Positions 3,534 through 28,746 of a stretch of DNA of 64,000 bases are shown here, in pieces. The notes beneath the pieces are model-generated. The model was not told the origin of the DNA, searched no databases, and saw only the letters and a list, made by a program, of their open reading frames with translations. Origin of the DNA: Mariprofundus ferrooxydans PV-1 (GTDB lineage: Bacteria > Pseudomonadota > Zetaproteobacteria > Mariprofundales > Mariprofundaceae); contig NZ_DS022294.1 in the NCBI RefSeq assembly GCF_000153765.1, forward strand, positions 806,836-870,835. The letters run 5' to 3'. The number at the start of each line of letters is the position of its first letter. Position 1 is the stretch's first letter. The position numbers and the translations under genes are program-made.

Positions 3534-3618
3534 CTTGGCAGGCATATTGTATGAGCACCGTTGAACTGTTTTCCGACCCAGCCTGCCAAGCGGATTCTTC
3601 CTCCAGCGCTCCTCGGTC
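3534..3618 (-). promoter_or_regulatory. S-adenosylhomocysteine (SAH) riboswitch upstream of ahcY
   Basis: Read on the minus strand, 3618-3552 contains GACCGAGGAGCGCTG, then CAGGCTGGGTCGG, then CAACGGTGCTCA. These match the conserved blocks of the SAH riboswitch aptamer. GACC pairs with GGTC to close P1, and GAGCGC can pair with GTGCTC as the pseudoknot. A possible expression platform is visible: CTTGGCAGGC within the aptamer (3590-3581) is perfectly complementary over 10 bases to GCCTGCCAAG (3543-3534), which lies 8 bases before the AGGAG ribosome binding site. SAH binding would be expected to keep the first strand in the aptamer and free the start region, raising ahcY expression. The switching mechanism is inference; the aptamer match is direct. 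Confidence 0.88.
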
Positions 3619-3669
3619 TTACCACCGCCAGCCCCCACCTCGGCCGCGACCTGCCTGCCTAGGTATAAA

Positions 3670-26425: not shown

Positions 26426-26884
26426 ATGAAGAAAGCCCTGCTTCTGGCAATCATCATGTTATTAACAACTACTGCCCGGGCCGCTGACAATCTCAATGAA
26501 GGAAAGCAGTTGCTGCAGGATAACTGCATGGGCTGTCACAATGCCGAGCTCGATCCGCCAATGGGGCCTCCGATGTTTGCGGTGCAGAAGCGCTATAAAA
26601 TGGCAACTTCCGACCGGAATGACTTTATCAATCAACTGACGGTATTTACGTTGCACCCCTCCGAGGATCGGGCCGTGATGATCAATGCGGTCGAGCTGCT
26701 CGGTGTGATGCCCGATATTGGTGCCGATGAAGCCGATGTGCGCAAGATTGCCGCCTATATCCATGATACCACCTTTGCCCCGCCGTGCGCCCACTGGCAG
26801 GCGAGCATCAAGGCGGCCAGAGCACGCGGCGACATGCGGCACGCAAAAAAAGATCAGATGATGTATAATAGAATGTGCAAATAG
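26426..26884 (+). CDS. Small periplasmic c-type cytochrome
   Basis: 152 residues from ATG 26426; CAGGAGG is 5 bases upstream. Signal peptide LLLAIIMLLTTTARA, then heme motif CMGCH near residue 36 and a Met-rich segment (GPPMFAVQKRYKMA) that may supply the axial Met. The C-terminus is basic and contains a second partial Cys (FAPPCAHW). Class I-like single-heme cytochrome. It is separated from the DUF2892 gene by 150 bases with no feature I can name, so it may have its own promoter. Confidence 0.83.
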   Translation: MKKALLLAIIMLLTTTARAADNLNEGKQLLQDNCMGCHNAELDPPMGPPMFAVQKRYKMATSDRNDFINQLTVFTLHPSEDRAVMINAVELLGVMPDIGADEADVRKIAAYIHDTTFAPPCAHWQASIKAARARGDMRHAKKDQMMYNRMCK

Positions 26885-26970
26885 CGGCTGCGACAATGTG
26901 TCCTGTGACACGGATGCTGCTAATCGTCTATCATATAGTGCGAAAACTATTCCCTGTAGAGGTGCTGAAG

Positions 26971-27402
26971 ATGAAGCGAGAAATGTATATGGGCATGATG
27001 CTGGCAATGACACTCGGTGTGATGGGCGGCTCAACAGCCGCATACGCCAGCGATGATAAACCGAAGGTATACGGGCGTGAGCTGATGAGCGGGCAGGAGC
27101 GCAGCGAGCAACGTCAGAAGATGCGCAACATGAATGAAACAGAGCGCGAGCAGTATCGGGCAGAGCAACATGAGCGCATGCGGGAGCGGGCCAAAGAACA
27201 GGGAAAACAGATTCCGGCTGAGGTTGGCGAGCGCAAAAAGGGCATGGGACAAGGTGCCGGTCGTGGCAGCGGTATGGGGCAAGGTGCCGGTCGCGGCAGC
27301 GGTATGGGGCAAGGTGCCGGTCGTGGTAGCGGCATGGGACAAGGTGCCGGTCGTGGCAGCGGTATGGGGCAAGGCGCCGGCGGCGGTCAGCGAGGCAGAT
27401 AG
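26971..27402 (+). CDS. Secreted Gly-rich repeat protein (GMGQGAGRGS repeats)
   Basis: 143 residues from ATG 26971 (GAGG 11 bases upstream). The signal peptide ends around TAAYA. A charged, helical middle (SEQRQKMRNMNETEREQY) is followed from about residue 91 by five copies of a 10-residue unit GMGQGAGRGS, the last ending GGGQRGR. The charged part resembles small periplasmic Spy/CpxP-like stress or metal-binding proteins, but I cannot assign it. The repeats are flexible and positively charged (Arg in each), which may bind polyanions or surfaces. No Cys or His cluster. Confidence 0.7.
   Translation: MKREMYMGMMLAMTLGVMGGSTAAYASDDKPKVYGRELMSGQERSEQRQKMRNMNETEREQYRAEQHERMRERAKEQGKQIPAEVGERKKGMGQGAGRGSGMGQGAGRGSGMGQGAGRGSGMGQGAGRGSGMGQGAGGGQRGR
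27241..27390 (+). repeat. Five tandem 30-bp in-frame repeats
   Basis: Five head-to-tail 30-bp units begin at 27241, 27271, 27301, 27331 and 27361, each encoding the same decapeptide with mostly synonymous differences. Copy number in such arrays changes by replication slippage. Confidence 0.9.
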
Positions 27403-27483: not shown

Positions 27484-28377
27484 CTAATAGCGCAGGAAAC
27501 GTGCCCTGATCCGCTCTGTCTTGCCGCTTAATTCGAAGGTGGCAAGGCCGGTGAGGATCAGCAGTGACCCTGCGATAATTTGCAAGCTCAGTGGTTCATG
27601 ATTGAGCACATGCCCAAGAGCCAGCGCGCAGAGCGGTGTAATCAGTGTCAGCAGCGCCACCCGCGTTGCATCGACCTTGCTCAATACATAATAGTAGAGT
27701 GCAAAGCCGAGCACCGACCCCAACAGAGCCAGATAAGCGATAGCGCCGATCGTGCGGGTGGAGAGCTGGTCCGGCAACATTGCACCGCTGACCAGCCAGG
27801 CGGCCAGAAACAGCGGCGCGGCAAACAACAAGCCGCCGCTGGTTTGAACAATGGCAGGCACCTCCGGCCTGATCCGCTTGATCCATACCGCACTGGCGCA
27901 ATGAATACTCACCGCCACCAGTATGCCAAGCACACCGAGGGCAGCCTGATCATGCAGACTCAAGCTACTGCCGAATATTACCAGCAATCCGGAGAGCCCC
28001 GTCAGCATGCCGAACAGGCGCGGGCGGGTCAGCGGCTCCGCATCCAGCCAGAGACGAGCCATCAGGGCAGTGACAATCGGTGAGATGCCGAAAATGACAG
28101 AAATCCAGCCGGTAGGGATGTATTGCGCAGACCAGTAAACACCCATCATACTACCGAAAATGCCGAAGCCGGCAGCCATATAGGCAAGCATGGCACGACG
28201 ATGCCAAACCATTCCGGCCCCCATCAGGGCGGCAATGATCAGCGCCAGCACGGCACCGATCAGCATACGGCTGCTGACACCAAAGACAAAGCCGACCTCC
28301 TGACTGCTCCACAGAATAGCCAGCGGGGTGGTACTCCAGATAAGGATAACGCCCAAATATGCCGATGGTACACCCAT
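27484..28377 (-). CDS. EamA/DMT-family exporter
   Basis: 297 residues from ATG 28377; AGGAG lies 6 bases upstream, while the ATG two codons earlier would touch it. Ten hydrophobic helices form two EamA repeats (LGVILIWSTTPLAILW near the start; the second repeat begins near residue 150). Inner-membrane drug/metabolite transporter, 10-TM type; members export amino acids such as threonine or cysteine, or other metabolites. The substrate is not visible in the sequence. The leader upstream carries a possible short peptide gene and a terminator, suggesting control by attenuation. Confidence 0.9.
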   Translation of the reverse strand: MGVPSAYLGVILIWSTTPLAILWSSQEVGFVFGVSSRMLIGAVLALIIAALMGAGMVWHRRAMLAYMAAGFGIFGSMMGVYWSAQYIPTGWISVIFGISPIVTALMARLWLDAEPLTRPRLFGMLTGLSGLLVIFGSSLSLHDQAALGVLGILVAVSIHCASAVWIKRIRPEVPAIVQTSGGLLFAAPLFLAAWLVSGAMLPDQLSTRTIGAIAYLALLGSVLGFALYYYVLSKVDATRVALLTLITPLCALALGHVLNHEPLSLQIIAGSLLILTGLATFELSGKTERIRARFLRY

Positions 28378-28441
28378 TTTCATCTCCTGTTGTCTCGTCC
28401 GTTAAAACAGCCTTCACGGCAAAATAGCCGTTTGCAGGCAC

Positions 28442-28482
28442 AAAAAAAACGGCCATGGATTCATCAAAACCCATGGCCGTTT
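28442..28482 (-). terminator. Leader terminator (possible attenuator) before the EamA gene
   Basis: On the minus strand, AAACGGCCATGG - 12-base loop - CCATGGCCGTTT is followed by a run of Ts (28449-28442). It lies 65 bases upstream of the EamA start, so a transcript entering from the right must pass it. It could instead end a small RNA. A second weaker hairpin with the same ACGGC core follows before the gene. Confidence 0.75.
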
Positions 28483-28505
28483 AAACTGATTCAGTACTTA
28501 ACGAA

Positions 28506-28595
28506 TCAACATACTCCGGCGCACAGGGGATCACTCCAGCGGGCCACTAGCCAGCCGAATGGAACTACCTTTTTGTGCGCAAAATACGTGTTCAT
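28506..28595 (-). CDS. Possible 29-residue leader peptide of the EamA gene
   Basis: ATG 28595 to TGA 28506, reading MNTYFAHKKVVPFGW, then LVARWSDPLCAGVC. It ends 24 bases before the terminator stem. Three inverted repeats lie around it: GGCAG/CTGCC just before the start, GCGCAC/GTGCGC spanning most of the frame, and TGATTC/GAATCA directly after the stop. Two Cys codons, two Trp codons and a Pro lie in the last half, as in leader or arrest peptides. No clear ribosome binding site is seen, which weakens the call. No sequence family known to me. Confidence 0.35.
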   Translation of the reverse strand: MNTYFAHKKVVPFGWLVARWSDPLCAGVC

Positions 28596-28746
28596 GACGG
28601 CAGAGTGTCACTGCCAGCAGCTCTGCGTCAACCGGCATGAGAAGCGCTGTGGCAGGAGTGCACAGGCGCATCGACACCCGATGGCGTGTATTTGTTACTG
28701 CAGGAGAAGATCAGGCGGGTATTGTATGGCGTGTGCAGGGAGGTGA

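Follow-up and report, generated by a model that had tools for sequence, protein, structure and literature searches.

A candidate leaderless attenuator with a tryptophan codon upstream of an EamA-family transporter gene in Mariprofundus ferrooxydans and other Proteobacteria

The gene for an EamA-family transporter in Mariprofundus ferrooxydans PV-1 is probably preceded by a leaderless, ribosome-mediated transcription attenuator that senses a Trp codon. Attenuation had been proposed for this gene in an earlier note on the window (the whole 64,000-nucleotide stretch of DNA that was analysed), and it is the best-supported reading of our sequence comparisons, in which we recognized a conserved leader open reading frame (ORF), an intrinsic terminator and a candidate antiterminator formed by RNA regions 2 and 3. 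The comparisons revealed a conserved frame, an invariant Trp codon, complementarity between regions 2 and 3, covariation in the terminator and the promoter spacing of a leaderless transcript. We infer from these features that the leader is translated, that the ribosome stalls, that the signal is Trp, and in which direction the control works. The features are listed in Table 1.

Table 1. Features of the putative attenuator and its target gene (positions in the window) and loci of the chorismate mutase arrangement in other genomes
Feature	Position or loci	Strand	Remark
-35 element TTGACG	28626..28631	-	36 bases before leader A(+1)TG
-10 position CACTCT	28602..28607	-	weak; TG precedes, as in extended -10; 2/6 consensus matches
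Leader ORF	28506..28595	-	29 codons + stop, encodes MNTYFAHKKVVPFGWLVARWSDPLCAGVC; conserved frame, pN/pS 0.58
Region 1, 5′ arm of leader hairpin	28574..28589	-	codons 3-8; from minimum free energy (MFE) fold
Trp codon 15	28551..28553	-	presumed regulatory codon; codon 20 (28536-28538) is also TGG
Region 2, CCTGTGCGCCG	28517..28527	-	predicted alternative partners: region 1 or region 3
Small hairpin	28487..28508	-	stop codon/terminator interval; predicted loop of antiterminator; seen in MFE fold
Region 3, CGGCCATGGG	28470..28479	-	terminator 5′ arm; predicted antiterminator partner of region 2
Intrinsic terminator	28442..28482	-	stem 28482-28447, 16 pairs, loop of 4, then eight-T run to 28442
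EamA/DMT-superfamily transporter gene	27484..28383	-	299 aa; PF00892; presumed regulated gene
Chorismate mutase gene between attenuator and EamA	L071, L082, L086, L088, L094, L097, L102, L104, L109, L116, L117, L123
Short in-frame remnants	L084, L091, L108, L115, L118, L121		both ends kept, ending LHPPS

Leader ORF, terminator and promoter

The end of the T run and the start of EamA are 58 bases apart. In the MFE fold of the leader RNA, a long hairpin enclosing an inner hairpin is followed by the small hairpin and then by the terminator. Its free energy (-77.9 kcal/mol, z = -5.5) was equalled by none of 200 shuffled sequences. The fold bears out the nested inverted repeats reported in the earlier note.

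DNA and protein searches found a leader and terminator before the EamA ortholog (57-92% identity) in 18 further zetaproteobacterial genomes. A covariance model of the element matched 20 of the 78 genomes of the class, and no second convincing copy was detected with it in any of the 20. In 20 Zetaproteobacteria the element has kept its start codon, its frame as far as the invariant Trp codon, and its terminator. Neither the EamA-family copies of 56% identity or less nor four other EamA-family loci in the same Mariprofundus genome had such a leader. Conserved across zetaproteobacterial genomes, the combination of leader and terminator is not a chance arrangement, as judged from sequence. In Mariprofundus AMOR20_M1620 (L016/L049), EamA was 77% identical and the leader was absent; inverted TGTAACTACTCAGG-like ends upstream suggest an insertion.

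The leader peptides of Zetaproteobacteria have M-N...W-L in common, as in MNTNVSRKKIAPFGWLVARRTASLCPSVF and MNMRMTHKIIAPFGWLVANRTAYLCAGLF. The pN/pS ratio of the leader was 0.58 in frame but 1.09 and 1.06 when it was read in the two alternative frames, and none of 300 column shuffles gave a value as low. The frame is conserved in relatives, as the earlier note had proposed to check, and a bias towards synonymous substitutions exists in this frame alone; both support the suggestion that the leader peptide may be translated. At locus L144 (G044:C169, about 1652-1551, minus strand), one of the covariance model matches, where the leader MNFNRAPHAKLLLCRIDWLVARRFVLPCAAFRC precedes a truncated EamA gene, three extra codons before Trp left the frame intact.

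The stretch after Trp, CCTGTGCGCCGG, behaved otherwise: its nucleotides were conserved but its reading frame differed among relatives (LCAGVC, LPVRRSVF, LCPDSSD). This pattern can be explained by its pairing with the terminator 5′ arm (5′-CGGCCAYGGG). What had been taken for a C-terminal arrest motif, DPLCAGVC, is therefore better explained as RNA region 2, and Cys as the signal is not supported, since the Cys residues lie in this stretch, which is not conserved as a peptide. Because the C-terminal residues shift with the reading frame, conserved arrest residues of the TnaC or SecM type are absent.

In 18 of the 19 zetaproteobacterial loci, a 5′-TTGAC sequence preceded the ATG by 34-37 bases. 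Among 64 leaders, including those of other classes described below, this -35 element lay at about -36 and the base preceding the leader ATG was usually C; the best -10 hexamer had its first base at -12 in 39 of them and at -13 in another 11. No Shine-Dalgarno-like 4-mer preceded the leader ATG in any of the 64, and such a motif was present at 55 of 80 EamA starts. Given the spacing of the promoter elements and the lack of a Shine-Dalgarno sequence, the predicted transcription start is the A of the leader AUG, and the leader mRNA is probably leaderless, beginning at its own AUG. The earlier note had regarded a promoter downstream of the terminator as incompatible with attenuation; the predicted promoter is upstream of it, just before the leader AUG. 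A generic promoter scan with stricter criteria found no promoter at the Mariprofundus leader. Upstream of the leader -35 element, a motif resembling 5′-TGCCACA/TGTGACA (about 28650-28657 of the window, minus strand) was present in most Mariprofundaceae loci and is a possible activator or repressor site.

Trp codon and alternative RNA pairings

An in-frame TGG was found in 63 of the 64 leaders, at codons 15-23. ATG and Trp were 42-66 nt apart, in every leader by a multiple of 3, and the EamA tree implied several changes of this length. For the distance from Trp to region 2, all residues modulo 3 occurred. Of 44 Beta/Gamma leaders, 38 had a distance of 15-18 nt; among the 19 Zeta leaders it was 23-26 nt in 16. 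With the size of its footprint, a ribosome decoding Trp at these distances would leave region 2 just free. The earlier suggestion that Trp is a plausible stall codon gains from this placement just before region 2. Tandem regulatory codons were not found: Trp was usually single, with a second Trp in a few leaders. In L147, Trp sits after region 2 and there is none before it. In a member of the Pontiellaceae (Kiritimatiellota; L059) with an EamA of 51% identity, a TTGAC-36-ATG leader without Trp, MTHLKHPKKNFAVCRPAMNGLVATPSAYMEKRFS, was present together with a terminator; horizontal transfer with a changed signal is possible for this leader.

The pairing of region 1 with region 2 appeared in folds of several species. 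The inner part of the region 1 helix was paired in 68.5% of cells across 19 species, and the joint structure of the 1:2 helix and inner hairpin in 77%, compared with 28-41% in slid controls. Hairpins of differing sequence occupied the place of the small post-stop hairpin in several relatives.

When region 1 was masked and region 4 was still absent, folding gave 157 pairs between regions 2 and 3 over 19 zetaproteobacterial species; 200 shuffles of region 2 gave 86 pairs on average and at most 111. This result suggests that the alternative pairings for which the earlier note had proposed folding include a region 2/3 antiterminator. Likewise, region 2 of the Beta/Gamma elements, GTCCGNGGCC, could pair with the terminator 5′ arm GGCCGCGGAC (367 pairs, shuffled mean 242, maximum 285). 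Over 63 species, with relatedness not removed, the duplex of a species' own regions 2 and 3 was more stable than swapped duplexes (-16.2 versus -14.4 kcal/mol; 0 of 2000 permutations); inside the Zetaproteobacteria alone, the swap test gave a weak signal (66 of 2000 permutations). No double compensatory changes between regions 2 and 3 were seen within the Zetaproteobacteria because the arms are too conserved there.

The terminator itself had four pairs changed on both sides, a covariation score that none of 500 shuffles reached. The comparisons as a whole support a terminator that may be conditional, as the attenuator of the earlier note implies. When folds were computed with the ribosome placed on codons 15-19, so that region 1 was occluded, and with the 3′ terminator arm not yet made, the antiterminator formed in most of the 19 species. 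The full terminator was thermodynamically favoured in every stalled-ribosome fold examined; therefore, the switch would have to be kinetic. A different antiterminator, between leader 5′-GTGGCC (codons 17-18) and terminator 5′-GGCCAY, was set aside and CCTGTGCGCC preferred, as inspection of the sequences showed that it was lost in L002, L010 and L013.

Related elements and the linked genes

A scan of named genomes for EamA gave 80 loci. We defined a leader by a 5′-TTGAC sequence 35-37 bases before an ATG that opens an ORF of 18-50 codons. Such a leader was present within 420 bases upstream of EamA in 40 of 79 named loci, and in none of the 79 reverse-complement or downstream controls. It was found further upstream at 15 more loci, giving 55 of 79 in total; a 16th match of this kind, in L111, was judged to be chance. 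The background was five occurrences in 128 kb (both strands of the window).

EamA orthologs in Betaproteobacteria, and in some of the Gammaproteobacteria, were preceded by the same architecture; the element ranges from Mariprofundus to relatives such as Thiobacillus and Zoogloea. The Beta and Gamma leader peptides include MNVCHHAPVAVRRLPLRKWLRMRRPGPGEV and MNFPKTFPAISIRRCALRAWRVAVCPGPGSG. In the EamA tree, the group bearing the element was apart from a Methylococcaceae group without it. In many Betaproteobacteria a gene for chorismate mutase type II (PF01817) lies between the terminator and EamA (Table 1), which may tie the operon to aromatic metabolism. An apparent second arrest peptide before betaproteobacterial EamA, ending in HPPS, turned out to be the C-terminus of chorismate mutase, and its short versions look like decayed remnants.

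The Mariprofundus EamA protein matched PF00892 (E 8.9e-28). Its matches to TIGR00950, YedA and the O-acetylserine/cysteine exporter were weak and all below the cut-offs. With 30% over 174 residues, it is only a distant relative of E. coli EamA; a PDB sequence search with it gave no match at E <= 1. The assignment as a YddG-type aromatic exporter by homology was rejected because similarity to YddG was scarce. Export of cysteine, mentioned in the earlier note, finds no support in the gene context, in which the linked gene is chorismate mutase type II.

The model of the Beta element also matched sister elements: those upstream of leuA have Leu-rich leaders, and those upstream of argD have Arg-rich ones. 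Leu-rich leaderless leaders, with 5′-TTGAC at about -36 and a terminator (of 5′-AAGGCC type in most), preceded the gene for 2-isopropylmalate synthase in L145, L146, L148, L149, L152 and L158; for example, MNEFRLLPTHHRLLLLGRRKCGM precedes leuA in a member of the Mariprofundaceae (L148, G083). These loci thus have an apparent leaderless leuA attenuator, as predicted from their sequences. In L156 and L161, Arg-rich leaders such as MISSRTHLRQVMRRRSRDDDGLRHVRRRR, which share this promoter spacing, preceded the gene for acetylornithine transaminase (argD); leaders of the same Arg-rich type were found in L170 and L173. The codon content of the leader follows the pathway (Leu with leuA, Arg with argD), which favours codon sensing. 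A pattern search of the family for Leu leaders gave chance-level matches only.

Proposed mechanism, alternatives and known systems

The following events would make a Trp-codon-sensing attenuator of this element. The leader AUG would be the start of transcription, and while RNA polymerase advances, the 29-codon peptide would be translated by a 70S ribosome. When the Trp codon is passed freely, the ribosome would come to the stop codon and cover region 2, the 3:4 terminator would form, and EamA would be off. When the ribosome is absent, region 1 would pair with region 2, with the terminator formed and EamA off again. A ribosome that stalls while the Trp codon occupies its decoding site would have its leading edge just short of region 2 and would occlude region 1; pairing of region 2 with region 3, with the small hairpin as the loop, would then block the terminator, and EamA would be transcribed. 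The unit transcribed upon such a stall would be chorismate mutase and EamA in many Betaproteobacteria. Shortage of charged tRNA-Trp would be the ordinary cause of the stall. If shortage controls, EamA more likely imports or balances an aromatic compound than acts as a detoxifying exporter. Points against this mechanism include the usually single Trp codon, in contrast to the tandem codons of classic leaders, the weak -10 element in Mariprofundus, the lack of double compensatory changes and the weak swap test for regions 2 and 3 inside the Zetaproteobacteria, the thermodynamic preference for the terminator, and the two more distant leaders, L059 and L147, that have no Trp before region 2.

Physiologically, it would be odd for Trp shortage to induce a presumed exporter together with chorismate mutase. 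We therefore considered sensing of an excess by arrest, and also that EamA may not be an exporter. Here the same attenuator hardware would be used, but the nascent peptide together with an excess small molecule (Trp or another EamA substrate) would arrest the ribosome, and the substrate would induce its exporter. TnaC and SpeFL are precedents for arrest by a nascent peptide and a small molecule. The residues near Trp are partly conserved (WL[VA].R, RR...W), and arrest by excess would suit an exporter paired with chorismate mutase, which might drain chorismate from Trp when Trp is plentiful. However, the constraint on the peptide is only moderate, as its pN/pS indicates (0.58), the spacing from RR to W varies, and the C-terminal part of the leader is not conserved as a peptide. 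A TnaC-like stall at the stop codon would cover region 2, and the RNA geometry predicts a stall at the Trp codon itself. We thus consider arrest by excess unlikely. A broader proposal is similarly doubtful: leaderless amino-acid attenuators would form a widespread class in Zeta-, Beta- and Gammaproteobacteria, with Trp for EamA/chorismate mutase, Leu for leuA and Arg for argD, and the EamA branch would sense Trp excess, not shortage, by arrest at the Trp codon. If it were true, one RNA hardware would serve an opposite logic for an exporter.

Alternatively, the leader might respond whenever translation slows down, as under ribosome-targeting antibiotics, and turn on a drug exporter; the invariance of the Trp codon and its fixed spacing from region 2 argue against this. 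EamA proteins do include drug/metabolite exporters, and the control of bmrCD by BmrB in Bacillus subtilis provides a transporter precedent (PMC4191407), but chorismate mutase shares the operon, and the sister Leu and Arg leaders match leuA and argD; this explanation seems very unlikely to us. Strong hairpins, and nucleotides conserved after Trp independently of the frame, could be expected of a structured untranslated element (a riboswitch-like RNA or a terminated small RNA) with an incidental ORF. Such an element would not account for the frame-specific synonymous bias, a start codon that is always kept, or an ATG-to-Trp distance that remained a multiple of 3 through several length changes, and Rfam covariance models gave no match at the leader element or at 20 Beta/Gamma loci. 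We therefore regard it as highly improbable.

Attenuation at the Trp codon has known counterparts. In the E. coli trp leader, a stall at the regulatory codon frees region 2. The EamA element resembles trpL and the leu and his leaders in its leader peptide, a presumed regulatory codon just before region 2, predicted 1:2, 2:3 and 3:4 pairing and an intrinsic terminator; unlike trpL, it appears to be leaderless, usually has a single Trp, and has a DMT transporter (in some cases with chorismate mutase) and not trp biosynthesis as its target. E. coli TnaC, a Trp-linked leader before genes including a transporter, arrests the ribosome at the stop codon and acts through Rho-dependent termination. The EamA leader is likewise Trp-linked with a transporter downstream, but its terminator is intrinsic, and arrest residues are not conserved at its C-terminal end.

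For Sinorhizobium meliloti trpL (rnTrpL), experiments showed that the 5′ end of the leader RNA is the ATG of the leader ORF (PMC7298713). This RNA also carries Trp codons, and attenuation there releases a small leaderless mRNA (PMC7298713). It differs in its 14 codons, its place before trpE(G), its alphaproteobacterial host and its peptide, and the start of the EamA leader is a predicted one. A work cited in PMC9031893 describes, by its title, leaderless polycysteine short ORFs in mycobacteria as an amino-acid-responsive attenuator; compared at the level of that title, these are alike as leaderless short-ORF attenuators and differ in their cysteine stretches and actinobacterial hosts. The bmrB leader of bmrCD in B. 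subtilis places a transporter under ribosome-mediated transcription attenuation with alternative stem-loops (PMC4191407), but it has 53 codons, an antibiotic signal and a terminator within the leader ORF.

We found no paper on this leader, on EamA attenuation or on a chorismate mutase-EamA operon in the open-licence literature, and a broad survey of attenuators (PMC2965389) does not mention EamA, DUF6 or chorismate. The element is real and conserved and is probably a regulator of a known kind, and its control region and target seem undescribed. With it, attenuation by leader peptides would act on a transporter gene in several classes of Proteobacteria, in which leaderless leader ORFs may be a common type of attenuator. 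Trp or aromatic amino acids provide a testable link to function for a large group of uncharacterised EamA transporters. The element also raises the question of why a Trp codon would switch a presumed exporter and chorismate mutase.

Two other observations were made in the window. At 26875-27402 (plus strand), it encodes a small, secreted-looking protein with tandem GMGQGAGRGS repeats at its end and no Pfam match. At 3546-3620 (minus strand), there is a match to the SAH riboswitch RF01057 of 37.4 bits (gathering score, 37).
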